Shown here: positions 3,163 through 29,960 of the stretch, one piece after another
How positions within the stretch are numbered: the stretch's first letter is position 1
Layout: every line of letters begins with the position of its first letter
Assembly (NCBI GenBank): GCA_029864405.1
Contig: JAOTTP010000014.1
Coordinates: forward strand, 1-48,172
DNA from: Nitrospirota bacterium
GTDB taxonomy: Bacteria > Nitrospirota > Nitrospiria > Nitrospirales > UBA8639
Direction: 5' to 3'
DNA length: 48,172 nucleotides
Made by a program: the position numbers and the translations under genes
Notes under the pieces: generated by a model
What the model was told of the DNA's origin: nothing
The model's database searches: none
What the model saw: the letters and a program-made list of their open reading frames with translations, nothing else

Positions 3163-4427
3163 GGGCATCTCTACAAAACCCCTGACAATTTGTGCGGCCT
3201 TTGCGATACTGCGGGTCCAAGGAGGATTGCTCATGCTCATGCCCACACCCAGCCAACTCATTTTTTTTGACCTTGCCACTCGCTATGAGGCCTTGAGTCA
3301 CCACGGGGATCCCTTAGAATCGCTCGCCGCCCATGTGCCTTGGGCGGAATTTCGTCCGGCCTTGGAACGAGTGCTTCGCCGCTCCAAGCGGAAACAAGGC
3401 AGTCGCCCCCCCCTTTGATGCCGTGCTGATGTTCAAAATCCTCGTCCTGCAAGCCTTGTATAACTTGTCCGATGAGCAGACTGAGTACCAGATCCGTGAC
3501 CGTCTGTCCTTCATGCGGTTCTTGGGGCTCGATCTGGCTCAACGCATCCCCGATGCCAAGACGATCTGGTTGTTTCGCGAAACCCTCGCTCAGGCCAAGG
3601 TCGTCGAGGCCCTCTTTACGCAATTTGAAACCTATCTGGCCGAACACGGCTTACAACCGCGTGGCGGCCAATTGATTGATGCCTCTCTGGTCCCCGTACC
3701 CAAGCCACACAACTCGCACAACGAACATGCCACGATCAAAGCTGGCACATGCCCGACGGAGTGGGAGAGCGTCCGCCCGCCAAGCGGCGGCAGAAAGACA
3801 CCGAGGCCCGCAGGACCGTGAAGCATGGTGAGAATCATTATGGGTACACAAACTAGGTGAACGTGGATAAGACGCACAAGCTCATTCGGCAGTATACGAT
3901 CACCGATGCGGCGGTCCATGAGAGTCAGGTGCTGGAAACAGTCCTGGTGTCCGCAGAGGCCGGACGGGATGTCTGGGCCGACTCCGCCTATCGCTCCGAC
4001 GCGATCGAAGCCCATCTGAACGCGACAGGCTTGCGCTCCAAGATTCAGCGCAAAGGCTATCGCAATAAACCTCTGACCACTCAACAGAAGACCCACCACC
4101 AGCGCCGCTCGCGCATTCGAGCGCGTGTCGAACATGTCTTCGGCCATCAGGTCACCGCGATGGGCGGCAAATGGATTCGAACCGTCGGGCTCGTGCGAGC
4201 TCGCCTCAAGATTGGGCTGAAGAATCTCACGTATAACTTCCAACGATTTCTGCTCCTCTCCGCTCCACCGAAGAGACAGGAGTCCTGAGGTAGAGGCAAA
4301 AGGTGAAGCACATGCCTCACCCCCCCCACTGAGGCCGCTGCGTACTCTCTGCTTCCAAGGCCATCCCAAATTTTCGAACCGAGACAGCCGGGTATTCAGG
4401 CAAAACTGGGGGTTTTTAGAGGTTCCC
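3163..4427 (+). mobile_element. IS5-family insertion sequence, about 1265 bp, decayed
   Basis: The ends form imperfect terminal inverted repeats: GGGCATCTCTACAAAACCCC at 3163-3182 and, on the other strand, GGGAACCTCTAAAAACCCCC at 4408-4427 (16 of 20 matching). The 4-bp sequence AGTA is found immediately outside both ends (3159-3162 and 4428-4431), the target-duplication length typical of the IS5 family. The interior carries one transposase reading frame in three broken pieces on the plus strand. Excision in silico of the element and one AGTA restores the reading frame of the methyltransferase on the opposite strand, which fixes the boundaries independently of the inverted repeats. Confidence 0.9.
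3233..4288 (+). pseudogene. IS5-family DDE transposase, inactivated by two frameshifts and a stop
   Basis: The start is ATG 3233 (or 3239), after an AAGGAGG ribosome site. The text MPTPSQLIFFDLATRYEAL, DAVLMFKILVLQALYNLSDE, GQLIDASLVPVPKP, DVWADSAYRS and GLKNLTYNFQRF is characteristic of IS5-type transposases (about 350 residues). The pieces lie in different frames. An extra C in the C-run near 3407-3413 shifts the first frame, a second shift occurs between about 3740 and 3777, and a TAG at 3854-3856 interrupts YGYTN-VNVDK. The element should not be able to move with its own protein unless the shifts are sequencing errors in homopolymers. The final frame ends TGA at 4288. Confidence 0.85.
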
Positions 4428-21568: not shown

Positions 21569-22972
21569 ATGAGTGACTATCAATCCCAATTACGCACCTA
21601 CATTCAGGATCACCGCGCCAGCTTTGAAGACCTCTTGGGGCAGATGGTGGAAGTGCCATCCGTGAGTTCAGACCCTGAACATGTTCCCGATATGCACCGG
21701 ATGGCACAATTGGCCGTTCAATACCTGGAACGATTTGGAGCCAAGGCCTCTATTGTGAACACCAGTGGTTATCCCAGCGTGTCCGGAGAATGGGTAGCCG
21801 GGCGACAATATCCCAGCCTGACCATTTACAATCATCTAGACGTCCAACCCGCGAAGGAACCGGAATGGCGTCAGCCCCCCTTTACCTTTCATAAAGATGG
21901 TGATCGGTACTGTGGCCGTGGGGCAACGGACGATAAAGGTCCAGCCTTAACCGCCCTCTTTGCTGCCAGATTTGCGAGAGAAGCCGGCATTCCCTTGAAT
22001 ATTCGGGTCCTCTGGGAGTTGGAAGAAGAAATTGGCAGCCCGAACTTTTCCGAGGTCCTTCAGAACCGTAAAGCCGTCCCTCCCTCCGATTCGGTCCTGG
22101 TGTCCGATACGATTTGGGTGGCGAAGGATCGCCCGGCTCTCTCCTGTGGCCTTCGCGGATTGTTAGTCGCCAAGTTGGTGCTTCGCACAGGGGAAACCGA
22201 TATTCATTCCGGGCTCACGGGAGGAGGGGCGCGCAATCCCTTAGCCGAATTGTGTGACGCCGCCTATTCCTGCTTGGACGCGAAAACCGGGCGGGTGAAA
22301 ATACCTGGATTCTACGATGATGTTATCCCGCCCACCCGCACCGAAATGAAAAATTTTCTGGCATCAGGATTTCAGGTTCGTCTCTTTAAAGAAGCCTATC
22401 AACTACGATCACTCCGAACCTCCGATCCTCAAGATTTACTCAAACGGATCTGGGCCTCTCCCACCTTTGAAGTGCATGGGTTAACGGGCGGACACATGGG
22501 GCCAGGGGTCAAAACCATTGTGCCTGCCTGGGGTGAACTCAAAGTGAGTATGCGGTTGGTTCCCAATCAACATCCCCAAAAAGTTTTCCGGCTCCTGAAA
22601 AAACACCTTCGTGCCCGCAACCCTGATATTGAGGTGATTAATGATGGAGAACTGGAACCCTATCGTGGAATTTCCGATGGCCCCTATGCGGAGGCGCTGC
22701 AAGAGGCTGTAGCCAAAGGCTTTGGACGCCGACCGGTGTTTGTGCGGGAAGGTGGATCTATCGGAGCCATTGCGGTGTTAGAACGTGCCTGGAAGGTCCC
22801 GATTCTGTTTATGGGCCTCAGTCTGCCGGAACATGGGTATCATGCACCCAATGAATATTTCGATTGGGGACAAGCCTCAGGGGGGATACAAGCCTTCGTC
22901 CACTACTTCGATCACTTGAGCCAGATGCGACCGGAAAATTCCAAGGCCCGCTTTAAGCCGACAAAGAGCTAA
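21569..22972 (+). CDS. M20-family metallopeptidase (dipeptidase-like)
   Basis: The 467-residue product has the M20 metal and catalytic motifs in order: YNHLDVQPA, GRGATDDKG, LWELEEEIGS with the general-base Glu pair, a dimerisation domain with IHSGLTGGGARNP, and SLPEHGYHAPNEY near the end. This is the pattern of ArgE/DapE/carnosinase-like dipeptidases acting in the cytoplasm. The two-metal site is complete. Its stop overlaps that of the convergent cytochrome gene by 4 bases. The substrate is not determinable; DapE activity is unlikely because the large dimerisation insert resembles carnosinase-type enzymes. Confidence 0.9.
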   Translation: MSDYQSQLRTYIQDHRASFEDLLGQMVEVPSVSSDPEHVPDMHRMAQLAVQYLERFGAKASIVNTSGYPSVSGEWVAGRQYPSLTIYNHLDVQPAKEPEWRQPPFTFHKDGDRYCGRGATDDKGPALTALFAARFAREAGIPLNIRVLWELEEEIGSPNFSEVLQNRKAVPPSDSVLVSDTIWVAKDRPALSCGLRGLLVAKLVLRTGETDIHSGLTGGGARNPLAELCDAAYSCLDAKTGRVKIPGFYDDVIPPTRTEMKNFLASGFQVRLFKEAYQLRSLRTSDPQDLLKRIWASPTFEVHGLTGGHMGPGVKTIVPAWGELKVSMRLVPNQHPQKVFRLLKKHLRARNPDIEVINDGELEPYRGISDGPYAEALQEAVAKGFGRRPVFVREGGSIGAIAVLERAWKVPILFMGLSLPEHGYHAPNEYFDWGQASGGIQAFVHYFDHLSQMRPENSKARFKPTKS

Positions 22973-23379
22973 GGCCCAGGAGAGGGAAGCGGAGGGGAAG
23001 GTGGGTCTTGAAAATGCACGAGAGTTCGAACATAGGCGAGGACATTGCGCCGTTGATCCACCGACAATTGATCACTCCACCCACGCATGGCCGTTCGGGG
23101 AACTCCCTTGGCAAGAATCTCGAGGAGTTCTTCATCAGTTTTGGTAGAGGTAGCTGCCGAAACTAAATTTCCGGGGCGAGGGGCCAACAGAGCTGCCCGT
23201 GGGCCATCACCCCGTCCTTCCGTCCCATGACATTCCAGACAATGAATCCGGTAGAGGTCTCGTCCTTGCTCAATATCGGGTTGCGCAGCAGCATCTCTCG
23301 ACTCATGGGAAGCGGCTAGGCCTGAGATGACCAAGCCGTTGATGAGGATCAGGGCGCCCATCCAAAAAAGACGATTCAT
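22969..23379 (-). CDS. Periplasmic c-type cytochrome, single heme
   Basis: The 136-residue product has a signal peptide (MGALILINGLVISGLAA) and one heme-attachment site, HCLECHG (CXXCH), with AMRGW supplying a likely axial Met. The C-terminal VLAYVRTL is the usual last helix of class I cytochromes. The tail is Pro/Ser-rich. It would carry electrons in the periplasm. It converges on the peptidase gene, with which it overlaps by 4 bases. Confidence 0.9.
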   Translation of the reverse strand: MNRLFWMGALILINGLVISGLAASHESRDAAAQPDIEQGRDLYRIHCLECHGTEGRGDGPRAALLAPRPGNLVSAATSTKTDEELLEILAKGVPRTAMRGWSDQLSVDQRRNVLAYVRTLVHFQDPPSPPLPSPGP

Positions 23380-25032: not shown

Positions 25033-25352
25033 TCAACCATCCCGCAATAAAGCCTCATCACGAGGCTTGGGTTGGCCGCAGCGCTCCCAGCAATTTATCG
25101 AGGAGGATCTCTCAAGCAGTCCGGAGGGATCATGAAGAATGGATCCATGCGAGAATCCAGAAGCATCCCGTATCATCTAATGATCAGAAAACACGCCGGT
25201 ATTCCCAAACAGCAGGCGGTTTTTCCGTGGTCCACCAGCCATTCCCACTGGTGAATTCGATTCATGAGAAAATTCAGAAGATAGATGCTGAGGAAAAGGC
25301 GAGAAAACTACGCCAGGCAAGACTCAGTGAAACCAGGGTGAGCTACACATGA
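25023..25352 (+). pseudogene. Coding-like remnant without a start codon, 109 codons
   Basis: The frame is open from 25023 to a TGA at 25350-25352, with no ATG and no early alternative start. The text HEEWIHARIQKHP, SQTAGGFSVVHQPFPLVNS and IHEKIQKIDAEEKARKLRQA is strongly coding-like, ending in a charged helix. It overlaps the 3' end of the convergent CopD-like gene by 10 bases. Family not recognised. A hairpin AAGCCTC/GAGGCTT lies at 25050-25068 within it. Confidence 0.4.
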
Positions 25353-25870
25353 AGATGTTTCATCGCCGCCGCACAAAGAATGATAAAGACGCCCATCCAT
25401 AATGCCACACGCTGAAATGGAACTGGCTCTAAGGCCATCTCTTCCAATTCATCGCTTGTTTCACCACCGGTGGGTTCATTTTTAAAGATGATGGTGTACA
25501 GAAAGATGGTCAGAATTCCTAGCACCAACGCCAATTTAATGAAAAAGACTGTGAGGTATTTGGCATGATAGGCGACATTTTCCCCGGACTGCATAACCAT
25601 GCTCTGACTCACATAATGAAGATTCGCTCCTCCAGTGAAAAGAATGACCACCAAGAGAATCCCGACTACCCGTTTATATTGCTGATAGAAGGTTTCAGAT
25701 ATCGGTCGGATAAATTCTCTGGGAATAGCGGTTTTGAGACCTGGCGTCACAGCCATGACAAGAAAAGCCAGCCCCCCAATCCACACGACGGCAGATAAGA
25801 GGTGCAGCCAATGCACCAGGATAGGAATAATCTGATTAAGGTCGGTGAGGACTCCGAGGAGGGATTCCAT
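25343..25870 (-). CDS. CopD-like/HemJ-superfamily membrane protein
   Basis: The 175-residue product has four predicted membrane helices: VHWLHLLSAVVWIGGLAFLV, VVGILLVVILFTGG, TVFFIKLALVLGILTIFLYT and VALWMGVFIILCAAAM. Conserved-type histidines in the first helix (HWLHLL) and in AYHAKY are those that bind copper or heme in the CopD/HemJ/DUF4149 group. It is the last gene of the three-gene operon and its ATG overlaps the radical SAM stop (TAATG). Given its partners, a role in heme or electron transfer is as plausible as copper handling; sequence alone does not decide. Confidence 0.75.
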   Translation of the reverse strand: MESLLGVLTDLNQIIPILVHWLHLLSAVVWIGGLAFLVMAVTPGLKTAIPREFIRPISETFYQQYKRVVGILLVVILFTGGANLHYVSQSMVMQSGENVAYHAKYLTVFFIKLALVLGILTIFLYTIIFKNEPTGGETSDELEEMALEPVPFQRVALWMGVFIILCAAAMKHLHV

Positions 25871-27252
25871 TAGAACTTAAACACAGGCTTTTCATTCCCG
25901 AACCGACGCTTCCGAAGTTCTTCCATTAACTCAATCGTCACGACTGGAATACCTTCTTCGGCAGCATGACGCTCGACGCCTTTTTTGACCATGGCGCGAA
26001 GAAAGTACGGGATACGACTGAGCCGCTCTTCCGCTGCGGCCTCCCATTCCACGGACGAGGCTTCCGGCACATTGAAGGCCACTTGGATTTTCTCCCCCCC
26101 TTTCGGGGTGTACAGGCACCATTCGTCCTCATCCATCCAATCCCCGTGGTCCACGTAGGGACGGGCACGGCATCCACCACAGATTTCACTGTATTCGCAA
26201 TCTCCACATTTACCCTTGAGGTGAGGATAGCGAAAGGAATTAAAAACCTCTGAATTTTCCCATAAATCAACAAAGCTCGTTTCGCGGATGTTTCCTGCAG
26301 ACAAGGGCATATACGGGCACGGCGTGAGATCACCGTTTGGTGTCACTCGCGCATAGTTAGTCCCTGCCAGACATCCTCCACCCATGTACCCTTGTGCTTT
26401 GGTGATGGGAGAATTTGGGTCCTTTTCATAGGCCAGGCGCTTAAAATGCGGCGCACAACGCGCCCGAACCAACATATCCTGGTATTTATCTTGGCTTTCC
26501 ACTAAATAGGTCAGGACTTCTTCATATTGTGAAGGAGTGATGTCGGTGAGCTCTTCACCTCGTCCTGTACACACCATGAAAAAGACATTTAAGACCTTGG
26601 CACCCAATTCGTGTGACCAATCGATGACCGCTGGTAATTCCTTGTAATTCATGGGCTGTGCGCTGAAATGTACTTGAAATTGAAGGCCATTTCGCTTACA
26701 GGCTTCAATACCGGCCATAGCCCCTTCCCATGCCCCAGGTAAACCTCGAAACGCATTGTGTGTTGCTGAATCCAGGGAATCAATACTAATGCCCACCCCC
26801 ATTACGCCAATGTCAACCATGGCTTTGGCCATCTTGTCGTCAATCAGCATTCCATTGGTGCCAAACACGACCATAAATCGTTGCTCGACGGCGTGACGCG
26901 CGATTTCAAGAATATCCGGGCGAACCAACGGCTCTCCCCCGGTAATAACAAGGAGGCTCCCGGCATTGACTTCGGCAATCTGATCAATGAGACGAAAACA
27001 TTCTTCCGTCGTCAATTCATCCTGCCCCCCGCCCAGTTTTGTCGTGGCATCCAGATAACAATGGTCACATTTGAGATTACATCGCTTGGTTAAATTGAGG
27101 GCCACTAGGTAGGGTTTAAAATCGTCCACGGTTCGGCCGTCTCCAGGCGCTCCGGAATCGGGGCGCAAGGATTCAAACCTCGATACTGCGCTGGATCCTA
27201 GCGAGTTCAGCGTATTGATGAATGAACTGAGAACAGGGAGTGACTTACCCAT
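25870..27252 (-). CDS. Radical SAM/SPASM protein with C-terminal PCP-reductase-like domain (NirJ/Ahb-like)
   Basis: The 460-residue product has the radical SAM cluster motif CNLKCDHC (Cys58, 62, 65), GGEPL, and a SPASM region with CGDCEYSEICGGCRARPY that holds additional iron-sulfur clusters. The layout resembles NirJ and AhbC/AhbD, which modify tetrapyrrole side chains, and also PqqE-type enzymes. Residues about 402-455 (WEAAAEERLSRIPYFLR, VERHAAEEGIPVVTIELM) form a PCP_red domain like that at the end of light-independent protochlorophyllide reductase subunit B. Its ATG overlaps the stress-protein stop by 8 bases and its own stop overlaps the next ATG, so the three genes are translationally coupled. 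Confidence 0.88.
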   Translation of the reverse strand: MGKSLPVLSSFINTLNSLGSSAVSRFESLRPDSGAPGDGRTVDDFKPYLVALNLTKRCNLKCDHCYLDATTKLGGGQDELTTEECFRLIDQIAEVNAGSLLVITGGEPLVRPDILEIARHAVEQRFMVVFGTNGMLIDDKMAKAMVDIGVMGVGISIDSLDSATHNAFRGLPGAWEGAMAGIEACKRNGLQFQVHFSAQPMNYKELPAVIDWSHELGAKVLNVFFMVCTGRGEELTDITPSQYEEVLTYLVESQDKYQDMLVRARCAPHFKRLAYEKDPNSPITKAQGYMGGGCLAGTNYARVTPNGDLTPCPYMPLSAGNIRETSFVDLWENSEVFNSFRYPHLKGKCGDCEYSEICGGCRARPYVDHGDWMDEDEWCLYTPKGGEKIQVAFNVPEASSVEWEAAAEERLSRIPYFLRAMVKKGVERHAAEEGIPVVTIELMEELRKRRFGNEKPVFKF

Positions 27253-29341
27253 TGTGGCCAGCTCCGGATTGGGCTTCAGAGGGAGCGCCCGTGCCGGTTA
27301 ACTTGGCGACGATATCTTTGACATTCCCAGTTTTCATGGCTTCTTCCATGGTGTGCTTGGCTTGCTCAATCCCCTGGTTAGCGACGTCAAGAGTTATGGT
27401 GGTGGTTCCAATTTTTTCGGCATGCTTGATGATTAACGCTTTAGTGCAATCCCGCATAAATCCGGCAGGAGCTTTTTCTAATCGTTGCAGGGCATCCGGC
27501 TCCCACATGTATGGATCTGCTCCATTCGCGTTGCCAGCATCTTCATTGTTGGATTCAGAGACCATAGTTGATGTCTCCCCAGCCGTTTTATTGGCAAAAA
27601 TTGGTGTGTAGTCTTCACTTGCCGCTTCTTGGATCATCGGTCCCGAATATTCCAACGTAATTGTGGTCATCCCGAGCTTCCTGGCAGTTTTTTCGATTTT
27701 TGCTTTTGCCCGTCGGCGTTGAAAACCAGCGGGAACTGCTCGAATCGCTTCCCGAGCGTCTTTGGTCCACTGCATGGGAATATCGTCATACGCCACTTGC
27801 GTTTCTAGGCCACCTTCCGCCTGCGCTGCCGCCTCAAAAATAGATTTATCGACTTGCTTGAATTGTGCTCCATCCAGCCCACAGACGGGACACATAACCG
27901 GATGATCACCTTTCCCAATATAGCCGCATCCCCCACACACATAATAATCTCGGGACATCCGATCCAAATAATTCTGGTTCACGGCACTCATGGGACTTGC
28001 AGTAACCGGTTTTTCTTCCACCACCTGAGACATCATGCCGCTCAACGTGGAACCCATTAAATCCTGGGCGACTTCATTCCCTGCTTGCATGGCATTCCGA
28101 TCGACTCCTGCCGCATCAAGAGTACCGCCTAATGTTTTCATCGCGTCCATGGCACCTTTGGGCAAAATATCACCAACCGCATCATCAATGACCGAATTAC
28201 TGATGATGGTATGCCCCTTTTCAATGGCGTATCGATGAATCGCAGTCTTTGCCACTCCCCGTGCAAAGACGGGGATCTTCTCCATCCGTCGCAAGGCTTC
28301 TTCCGTCCAGGCAATCGTGTATTCAGCCTGTGTGTCAATCGGAGGAACGAACTTTCTGTTGGATACCAAGACATTGCAAGGAGCTGAACGCAAGAGATTT
28401 TCGGCATTGCTGCCAATATCCATATCATCATCACTATGCACACCAATCCGTCCAACGATGAGCAACCATGGTTGCTCTTTTCGAACGTACTGAATAATTT
28501 TCTCAAACGCTTTGCCGTCGAGAAGAGTTGTCTTAATATCCGCACCCTCGTCTTGTGCGACATCGCGAGAGACATCAAGATGAGACTGGTAAATTTTCGC
28601 TAACCCGCTGTCGATGACTTCTTCGTGAAGCTTTTCCTGCTCCTTAAATCGAAACACCTTTCCAGCCTCTTCATTCAAGACACCGGAAATACTGTGAAAC
28701 GCCGCATAGTGAAAATAAGGATCGAATGCTGAAATCGCTTCCACCGGCTTATTAAGGGCCTTCCCCAAGGCCAGAGCGGTCTTCAATCCTCCAAAAGAGT
28801 AATGGCTCCCATCAACGGCTACCACAATTTTTCCCCCGTTCATGGGCTTGGTATCTTTCACAATAAACATGTCCGAATTACGAACCCGACGGATTACCCG
28901 CTCCGTGTTACTCCCGATAACAGAGTCTTTTACCGCTCCAACCCCCAAAGCCCCCATAATGGTCAGGTCATACCCATTTTTTGTAATATCTTCGGCAAGT
29001 GCTTTCCAGTTTCGTCCCTCAAGTGAACGCCGCTCCAGGGGAATGTTCGCTTCCGCACATTTCTGGTCGACAAAATCCAAATACGAATCTGTGATAATTT
29101 GTAAGCCTCTGGTGATAAGGGAGTCATGAATTTGGCGTTGGCGATCTAACTCTTTTTCGTCATGATATTCCTCGGGAAGACCTGCCTCCATCTGCTTAAA
29201 TCGCTTATCATGCATCTTCGCGGCATACACATGGCTTCCCACAATTTTCGATCCGAAAACTTTAGCGAACTGCACTCCCAGTTCTACAGCCATATTCGAA
29301 TGGTCTGAATTATCAACCGGGACATATATTGTTTTATACAT
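27245..29341 (-). CDS. Tandem universal stress protein fused to a zinc ribbon and three PCP-reductase-like domains
   Basis: ATG 29341 has a perfect AAGGAGG at a 7-base distance (the TTG at 29344 is too close). The product is 698 residues. Residues 1-165 and 168-330 are two UspA domains, each with the nucleotide-binding signature G-2x-G-9x-GSN (from 130 and 297). Residues 345-390, 524-568 and 613-657 are PCP_red-like modules (WTEEALRRMEKIPVFARG, WTKDAREAIRAVPAGFQRRR, WEPDALQRLEKAPAGFMRD). Between the first two, VCGGCGYIGKGDHPVMCPVC (468-487) is a rubredoxin-like four-cysteine ribbon. It probably senses nucleotide or redox state and binds an iron-sulfur or tetrapyrrole partner. It leads the operon. 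Confidence 0.85.
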   Translation of the reverse strand: MYKTIYVPVDNSDHSNMAVELGVQFAKVFGSKIVGSHVYAAKMHDKRFKQMEAGLPEEYHDEKELDRQRQIHDSLITRGLQIITDSYLDFVDQKCAEANIPLERRSLEGRNWKALAEDITKNGYDLTIMGALGVGAVKDSVIGSNTERVIRRVRNSDMFIVKDTKPMNGGKIVVAVDGSHYSFGGLKTALALGKALNKPVEAISAFDPYFHYAAFHSISGVLNEEAGKVFRFKEQEKLHEEVIDSGLAKIYQSHLDVSRDVAQDEGADIKTTLLDGKAFEKIIQYVRKEQPWLLIVGRIGVHSDDDMDIGSNAENLLRSAPCNVLVSNRKFVPPIDTQAEYTIAWTEEALRRMEKIPVFARGVAKTAIHRYAIEKGHTIISNSVIDDAVGDILPKGAMDAMKTLGGTLDAAGVDRNAMQAGNEVAQDLMGSTLSGMMSQVVEEKPVTASPMSAVNQNYLDRMSRDYYVCGGCGYIGKGDHPVMCPVCGLDGAQFKQVDKSIFEAAAQAEGGLETQVAYDDIPMQWTKDAREAIRAVPAGFQRRRAKAKIEKTARKLGMTTITLEYSGPMIQEAASEDYTPIFANKTAGETSTMVSESNNEDAGNANGADPYMWEPDALQRLEKAPAGFMRDCTKALIIKHAEKIGTTTITLDVANQGIEQAKHTMEEAMKTGNVKDIVAKLTGTGAPSEAQSGAGHNG

Positions 29342-29960
29342 CAACTAGCCTCCTTACAGATTTCCGCTCTAGAAAAAGCGGCACCACACCCTCGTCTCAA
29401 TCACCAGGAAATGCTTATAAACAGACGTTTTTTCAGATGAAATCAGTGCCGATCTTACCACTGGGAATTCTAGGTACGCAACCCAGCAACCATTTACACC
29501 TTGGCATAAGCAACATCTATAAAATCATATATTTTTCAAATGCATTGAAAGTCGTTGTTTGCGTTTTTCCCGGTCTTATAGAAATTCATGACAAACACGT
29601 AAAAGTACTTATTTTCATATTACGTACTTCTAACGTATCGTATCAGGATACTTGGCAACACGATTTCACTAAACAAAACCAAATCAACATTCCCATTAAG
29701 AAGCGACACAAGCCTTTTCATTCGAAAAGCAAGCCTCGTAAGTGACGGCTAGCAATCAATACTGCAAATTGCGTCACTGACTGAGGATCGATAGATAGTG
29801 TCTCCAGGCAGATCAATTGAAATGAAGAAAATTATCCAAGAAATTGCGTAAATCAACTTAATTCGGTTATGTTTGATAGTTTTGTGTTTTGCTTTATTCA
29901 CCAAATGAGACCATGCCCATGATGGACATACGGCTCAAGCAAGTTGGTTAGGGGGATTCG
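29342..29960. other. Divergent intergenic region between the stress-protein operon and metK
   Basis: About 620 AT-rich bases with no convincing gene. A 138-codon plus-strand frame (29329-29745) has no ribosome site and random-looking text. I looked for a SAM riboswitch before metK and did not see the conserved core. A weak TTGCGT/TATGTT pair at 29844-29873 may be the metK promoter. Confidence 0.4.

Follow-up and report, generated by a model that had tools for sequence, protein, structure and literature searches.

Radical S-adenosylmethionine (SAM) enzymes of the AhbC, AhbD and NirJ types act on iron-tetrapyrroles (PMC7242693, a review; PMC10452713), and experiments in Bacillus assign roles in the metallation or assembly of oxidases to YcnJ, which has a CopD domain, and to CtaM, a DUF420 protein (PMC13344008). 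All Nitrospira genomes analysed by the time of PMC6606698 were without a canonical heme-copper terminal oxidase, for which a cytochrome bd-like oxidase may stand in; in N. moscoviensis and N. marina one such oxidase has putative sites for heme b and copper (PMC6606698, PMC8115632). A later paper reports that N. marina has a cbb3 oxidase as well as seven bd-like genes (PMC8115632), and the term enigmatic has been applied to the bd-like protein in the nitrite oxidoreductase (NXR) cluster (PMC3578206). The papers cited in this text are drawn on in excerpt. Here we describe three consecutive minus-strand genes in a 48,172-nucleotide stretch from a Nitrospirota relative of nitrite oxidizers (assembly GCA_029864405.1, contig JAOTTP010000014.1; the whole stretch is referred to as the window), which encode a 698-residue universal stress protein (Usp)/PCP_red protein, a 460-residue radical SAM/SPASM/PCP_red protein and a 175-residue CopD/DUF4149-like membrane protein. 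Because this operon and the bd-like oxidase occur in almost exactly the same sampled genomes, the operon probably helps to build the oxidase, and we lean modestly towards the view that it encodes the central part of the machinery that matures the Nitrospirota bd-like oxidase, probably acting through an iron-tetrapyrrole.

The genome sets are a sample of the phylum and include many metagenome-assembled genomes (MAGs); G, L, f and g are handles for genome, locus, family and genus, and contrasts between genomes assume that the same genomes were drawn in each search. The oxidase query was a 623-residue neighbour of the PCP_red protein PCP166, which matches Cyt_bd_oxida_I at 60 bits (cut-off 26.2). 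The Usp protein was found in 84 of 198 sampled Nitrospirota genomes and the bd-like oxidase in 33 of 100 and 84 of 196, with 82 genomes on both the Usp-search and the oxidase-search lists. G163 has the oxidase without a Usp match, yet carries the radical SAM gene (58% identity); the system is present in 83 of the 84 oxidase-bearing genomes, and about 110 genomes have neither (Fisher's exact p = 7e-52 for the co-occurrence, a value that ignores kinship). G187, which is 95% complete, has the oxidase and neither system gene, its four listed congeners all carrying the system, and G197 has the system and does not appear in the oxidase listing, its membership in the 196 being uncertain. In the 100-genome set the phi coefficient with the system is 0.98 for the bd-like oxidase, compared with 0.47 for MpqE, 0.34 for HemQ/Cld, -0.12 for AhbD and -0.32 for HemN (these four counted above curated cut-offs, and the presence/absence sets compiled by hand from the search tables). 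System and oxidase also differ together between close relatives, as in G150 versus G134 of the same genus, G156 versus G122, G111 versus G093, and, within f17, g52 and g57 versus g36, g41 and g47, with G008 (g30) discordant. Genomes of the window's order mostly have four or more bd-like matches each, and G181 has three. The tie between the operon and the bd-like oxidase in the sampled Nitrospirota is strong.

Physical linkage is seen as well. In f4, f16, f17, f25, f26 and f30 the oxidase cluster, consisting of bd-like, cytochrome c and DMSO-type gamma (alt-NxrC) genes, adjoins system genes, with the order bd-cytC-gamma-usp-rSAM/PCP331-HemY on one strand in G049 (rSAM denoting the radical SAM gene), bd-cytC-gamma-usp in G069 and bd-cytC-gamma-gamma-Mrp-PCP263 in G054. 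The fullest case is G131 (f4), in which usp, radical SAM and copD genes are followed on the opposite strand by PCP331, a heme-oxygenase-fold protein, PCP263, Mrp, DUF420, two gamma, cytochrome c and bd-like genes, all on one contig at about 2.2 to 19 kb (of which L155 and L291 are adjoining parts). A PCP331-like gene stands beside bd-like in G007, usp/rSAM adjoin bd-like in G111, G174 and G176, PCP166 and a DUF420 protein adjoin it in G000 (the window's genome) and G094, and the radical SAM gene of G025 (f15) lies about 6 kb from the oxidase cluster. In f17 the radical SAM gene is followed by a HemY-type protein (304 bits, cut-off 97.85) that is 39-44% identical to the HemY of the hem operon, and at L288 and L291 the distance from HemY to the oxidase is at most about 5 kb. 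The operon of the window's order, and that of G119, are not adjacent to the oxidase, and G156 has a gamma-type gene about 6 kb from the system, its oxidase not having been located. Genes at these loci were called as the longest open reading frame, which misplaces genes at GC-rich loci such as L283, L286 and L288, where antisense frames mask that of the oxidase.

The operon itself is widely conserved. A contig scan gave 185 confirmed relatives of the radical SAM protein, the best 80 of which were kept and all have Nitrospirota-type titles; relatives from other phyla may sit among the remainder, and all genome searches were within Nitrospirota. The Usp gene is directly upstream of the radical SAM gene at 74 of the best 80 loci, so the gene order holds beyond this strain, a point on which the sequence-only reading had staked its case; at the other six (L010, L013, L014, L037, L050 and L052) the radical SAM start lies no more than 162 bases from a contig end. 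The CopD-like gene is downstream at 78 of the 80, with the L085 operon leaving its contig and L082 giving no match at 1e-10. The Usp match is full length or nearly so in most genomes of the window's class; in deeper families it covers either the Usp part or roughly residues 1 to 400. In those families PCP331, a protein of four PCP_red repeats, is either a separate gene of the operon (L154, L157) or joined with the radical SAM protein in a fusion (L161, L162, L165). In three deep-branching genomes a protein of 219-244 residues follows the Usp or radical SAM gene (L211:11560-12291, L216:8326-8985, L279:5051-5785); of these, only the L211 copy was searched against Pfam, and it gave no match at E 0.001.

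Within the window, genes 1 and 2 overlap by 8 bases (gene 1 stop TAA at 27245-27247, gene 2 ATG start at 27252) and genes 2 and 3 by 1 base in TAATG (gene 2 stop 25870-25872, gene 3 start 25870), so that the overlaps and coordinates reported from the sequence alone were confirmed on re-reading. The features are as follows.

29349..29355, minus strand: Shine-Dalgarno sequence AAGGAGG of gene 1, a strong site 5' of the ATG at 29341 (sequence)
27245..29341, minus strand: gene 1, 698 residues, tandem Usp, three PCP_red and rubredoxin-like knuckle (Pfam, motif)
28910..28954, minus strand: predicted first Usp nucleotide-binding motif GALGVGAVKDSVIGS, residues 130-144 (motif match)
28409..28453, minus strand: predicted second Usp nucleotide-binding motif GRIGVHSDDDMDIGS, residues 297-311 (motif match)
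28178..28309, minus strand: PCP_red copy 1 of gene 1 (DNA-level PF08369, 53.2 bits)
27881..27937, minus strand: rubredoxin-like CxxC...CxxC knuckle of gene 1, residues 469-487 (RUBY_RBDX 22 bits, cut-off 26.5; motif)
27650..27769, minus strand: PCP_red copy 2 of gene 1 (DNA-level PF08369, 41.1 bits)
27377..27505, minus strand: PCP_red copy 3 of gene 1 (DNA-level PF08369, 31.1 bits, slightly below cut-off)
25870..27252, minus strand: gene 2, 460 residues, radical SAM/SPASM with C-terminal PCP_red (Pfam, NCBIfam, tree)
27058..27081, minus strand: radical SAM CX3CX2C motif of gene 2, C58, C62 and C65 (motif reading)
26116..26457, minus strand: SPASM region of gene 2 with C266, C294, C312, C349, C352, C358, C361 and C379, spaced as in the two auxiliary clusters of AhbD
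25912..26046, minus strand: PCP_red of gene 2 (DNA-level PF08369, 57.4 bits)
25343..25870, minus strand: gene 3, 175 residues, CopD/DUF4149-like membrane protein (weak profile matches, alignment)

The cysteines of gene 2 fit the complete AhbD SPASM spacing C-27-C-17-C-36-C-2-C-5-C-2-C-17-C, a motif published in PMC10452713. In Pfam the protein matches Radical_SAM (87.1 bits, above cut-off), SPASM and one PCP_red (53.4 bits, cut-off 32.5), and the top NCBIfam ranks are NirJ2 at 329 bits and AhbD (TIGR04545) at 320.1 bits, neither reaching its cut-off of 500; scores against NirJ (180 bits, cut-off 515) and AhbC (177 bits, cut-off 650) are likewise below cut-off. A tree was built from 49 proteins, comprising 48 of 68 search hits and the window protein; AhbD rows that nearly duplicated others were omitted, as were a few distant rows. 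The 15 operon proteins group together (support 92/86), sister (90/88) to three radical SAM partners of Usp proteins that lack PCP_red. AhbD with TIGR04053 (100/98) and NirJ/AhbC (100/98) fall outside as two other groups. The tree has several flagged long branches, and NirJ2 is a single long branch nearby whose placement is unsure. By sequence, then, the operon radical SAM proteins are a clade of their own beside AhbD and NirJ2, and the earlier comparison with tetrapyrrole-tailoring enzymes stands, the nearest being of the AhbD/NirJ2 type by NCBIfam scores, tree and cysteine spacing. The window's genome also has a second AhbD-like radical SAM protein, G000:C116 (L221:2941-4062), which is a TIGR04053 member (461 bits, cut-off 395) and has no PCP_red.

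Gene 1 contains two Usp stretches (115.4 bits, above cut-off) and three PF08369 stretches scoring 108.4 bits together, and so the proposal that both cytoplasmic proteins carry PCP_red is upheld. The Usp ATP-binding motif we take to be G-2x-G-9x-G(S/T); gene 1 carries two G-2x-G-9x-GS copies, and with its Usp domain and both predicted nucleotide-binding motifs it would belong to the ATP-binding type, which agrees with the nucleotide-binding sensor suggested previously. The rubredoxin-like knuckle and the two motifs themselves are features absent from that account. Gene 1 scores 63 bits against TIGR01278 (cut-off 490), the whole-protein equivalog for BchB of dark-operative protochlorophyllide oxidoreductase; a plasmid search with the protein gave 10 records, all aligned to the Usp part alone. 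The statement in the sequence-only reading that no chlorophyll gene is present applies to the window, and BchN and BchL were not searched for genome-wide.

Assignment of gene 3 is weak, with DUF4149 at 19 bits (cut-off 24.6) and the CopD model at 32.9 bits (cut-off 195). At E 0.01 DUF4149 gives weak matches in 22 of 23 aligned members and CopD in 19 of 23, and H20, H23, K104, K112 and H174 are invariant across the 23. HemJ is absent from the Pfam matches of these members, so that the HemJ-like label given to this protein is unsupported, and a profile search against solved structures gave no match up to E 1. A swap of HemJ for HemY, with gene 3 in Nitrospiria and HemY in f17, is attractive; we keep it as an idea only, since gene 3 has no HemJ match. 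The broader suggestion of a tetrapyrrole- or metal-related system has mixed fortunes: it gains from the kinship to tetrapyrrole enzymes, loses HemJ, and had missed the tie to the oxidase.

The PCP_red domain is expanded in these genomes. Among 100 genomes searched, all 17 others of the window's order have 11 or 12 PCP_red matches, and the window's genome (66% complete) has 7. The carriers traced in G094 and G000 are the two operon genes, PCP331 (G094 only), PCP263 and PCP166. PCP263, which combines a Cys4 motif with two PCP_red domains, adjoins an Mrp/ApbC-type Fe-S ATPase in G000 (G000:C82, L118:7338-9157), a pair that recurs in f4, f11 and f17. In f18, PCP_red and a HemQ/chlorite-dismutase domain share one open frame, as judged from coordinates, in 12 of 12 genomes with a PF06778 match, and Pfam confirmed the fusion at both loci tested (L217:7036-8061, L218:6091-7254); none of these 12 genomes is among the 84 with the Usp protein. 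Beside PCP166 and the bd-like oxidase of the window's genome are a DUF420 (CtaM-type) protein and a methyltransferase (G000:C175, L119:7468-9271), the latter having BchU as its best NCBIfam match (79.6 bits, cut-off 276). The heme-oxygenase-fold protein between PCP331 and PCP263 (L155:8566-9252; PF14518, CADD-like below cut-off) was seen in one member of the class.

Because it is tied to the operon, the bd-like oxidase is its likely target, and assembly of this oxidase is the strongest inference; the chemistry is suggested by family membership. Iron-tetrapyrrole chemistry would fit because the AhbC/AhbD/NirJ kin act on such compounds and because PCP_red is found in BchB, in HemQ-like proteins and here. 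The AhbD/NirJ-type enzyme, with three predicted [4Fe-4S] clusters, would make or modify an iron-tetrapyrrole (heme) for the bd-like oxidase; the PCP_red domains would either handle the tetrapyrrole, holding it or passing it on, or serve to dock partners; nucleotide-dependent gating of the step, and perhaps electron transfer, would fall to the Usp-rubredoxin protein; and the CopD-like membrane protein would serve heme or copper insertion, copper perhaps fitting as well as heme in view of the roles of YcnJ and CtaM in Bacillus. Several Usp proteins of N. marina rise at low oxygen, the source not specifying which (PMC8115632). A bolder and more tentative version, possible rather than probable, is that the bd-like oxidase of nitrifiers and chemolithotrophs contains an undescribed or unusually attached heme, that the operon together with PCP331, PCP263/Mrp ATPase and PCP166 is dedicated to its biosynthesis and delivery, and that PCP_red is a general tetrapyrrole-handling domain, taken over at a later stage by chlorophyll biosynthesis or passed on in the opposite direction.

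Oxidase maturation could also proceed without a tetrapyrrole: the radical SAM/SPASM protein would modify or crosslink residues of the bd-like complex or of its cytochromes, and the PCP_red domains would dock an Mrp/NifH-type Fe-S ATPase that loads the enzyme's clusters, in the way that BchB pairs with BchL. We regard this as unlikely. The adjacency of PCP263 and an Mrp/ApbC-type ATPase in f1, f4, f11 and f17 is consistent with it, as are the CxxC and the MrpORP score of the f1 ATPase (243 bits, below the cut-off of 450), the action of many SPASM enzymes on peptides (PMC10452713), and the finding that PqqE is the best solved-structure match of gene 2; the operon clade, however, groups with AhbD, TIGR04053 and NirJ2 and not with the two peptide-type rows, the only two included, and we favour the tetrapyrrole side because the HemY and HemQ associations point there (short precursor-peptide genes were not searched for). 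Were gene 2 simply the organism's heme b synthase in the AhbD role, its 320 bits to TIGR04545 and shared cysteine spacing would be explained, but the score is below the cut-off of 500, the clade is separate, and AhbD above cut-off coexists with it in G002, G021 and G030 (the operon gene being cut by a contig end in the latter two). Moreover, all 18 genomes of the window's order carry HemQ/Cld-family proteins and 17 of the 18 HemY, and f17 genomes G008 and G049 carry HemN and a hem-operon HemY. Because true AhbD coexists in three genomes, the gene 2 clade is not simply the heme b synthase; with HemQ, HemY and HemN present as well, we set this role aside as the least credible of those considered. 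The heme routes found beneath the system are HemQ/Cld with HemY in the window's order (HemN above cut-off in 0 of 18), HemN with HemY in f17, whose hem operon also has HemE and HemH as read by eye, and AhbD in f11.

The gene neighbourhood suggests two further roles. One is that the system serves not the oxidase but an NXR-type nitrite oxidoreductase, or a part of it such as the heme b gamma subunit. In favour are an NXR/NarG-like molybdopterin subunit in the same cluster in G111, G174 and G176 and the described conservation of the bd-like/alt-NxrC cluster across Nitrospira, Nitrospina and anammox bacteria (PMC3578206, PMC6606698). Of 196 genomes, however, 56 have an NXR-like alpha at E 1e-60, and these include none of the nine f3-f9 genomes of the window's class and none of the f11, f15, f16 and f17 system genomes, whereas G041, G064, G122 and G134 have NXR-like alpha but no system; ten genomes of the window's order also lack it, possibly through assembly gaps. 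By this distribution the NXR link is weaker than the oxidase link, and we consider the role very unlikely. A part in methyl-plastoquinone biosynthesis seems a shade less likely still. At Nitrospiraceae-type loci MpqE (415 bits, cut-off 335) and a Slr0320-like B12-binding radical SAM gene (446 bits, cut-off 775) are directly upstream of the operon, the latter at 41 of the best 80 of 185 loci, but MpqE above cut-off is missing in 12 of 34 system genomes and present without the system in 12 others of the 100 (hence the phi of 0.47), and in three genomes of the window's family (G000, G065, G081) it is located elsewhere; the adjacency is real, and the co-occurrence fails. The pair can be seen at L152:4282-6845 (G094) and at L057 (Candidatus Nitrospira defluvii), and the Slr0320-related protein is a candidate quinone methyltransferase, as suggested for cyanobacterial Slr0320 (PMC8065906).

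Several observations weigh against a role of the operon in maturing the bd-like oxidase through an iron-tetrapyrrole. G008 (f17, g30) has the system without a detected oxidase, and the co-occurrence is uncorrected for kinship except by the within-family contrasts. System genes are away from the oxidase in G083 and G150 and on different contigs from it in several fragmented MAGs, Nitrospiraceae-type operons follow MpqE and the B12 radical SAM gene rather than the oxidase, and in the window the operon has divergent metK/ahcY genes upstream (translations read by eye, with no family search). The radical SAM substrate is predicted from family membership, and eight-cysteine SPASM enzymes also modify peptides; a HemJ-type function of gene 3 is unsupported; and two AlphaFold models were weak (mean pLDDT 53 and 64) and not used.

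Elsewhere in the window, a small cytochrome c (22969-23379; Cytochrome_CBB3 42.8 bits) lies on the same strand about 2 kb downstream of the operon, with a GTPase-like gene, read by eye, between them. Transposase-like frames at 3333-4288, in two reading frames, appear by eye to be a broken insertion element.

A gene set that comes and goes with an oxidase opens the cofactor and assembly of that oxidase to direct testing, provides a marker set for the bd-like oxidase in environmental genomes and, within the searches made, gives PCP_red its first functional context outside chlorophyll synthesis. No paper on this operon was among those listed from the open-licence literature searched. Among described systems, the operon protein resembles AhbD in its radical SAM and SPASM domains, in the eight-cysteine spacing that goes with two auxiliary clusters and in a shared CAPH segment, but differs from AhbD, NirJ and AhbC in forming its own clade, in its extra C-terminal PCP_red and in scoring below the curated cut-offs, and from AhbD also in coexisting with it and in being tied to an oxidase rather than to the heme pathway. 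The PCP_red domains match solved BchB C-terminal domains (e.g. 2kru, E 3.9e-6), although the operon proteins have no nitrogenase-like catalytic domain in a Pfam scan and PCP_red is here carried on Usp, radical SAM and Cys-rich proteins in up to 12 copies per genome. With Bacillus CtaM and YcnJ the locus shares a CopD-type protein in the operon and DUF420 in the bd-like cluster of G000, G094 and G131; those proteins, however, serve heme-copper oxidases, and the excerpted PMC13344008 describes no radical SAM or PCP_red partner for them. Finally, the bd-cytC-gamma (alt-NxrC) set linked to the operon here is that of the bd-like cluster of Nitrospira, Nitrospina and anammox bacteria, whose function is given as enigmatic or putative, and for which no maturation system is named, in the excerpts of PMC3578206, PMC6606698 and PMC8115632. 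Dedicated systems for oxidase cofactors and assembly are thus known, and so are the parts of this one; their combination and its link to the bd-like oxidase do not appear in the excerpts of the open-licence literature consulted.

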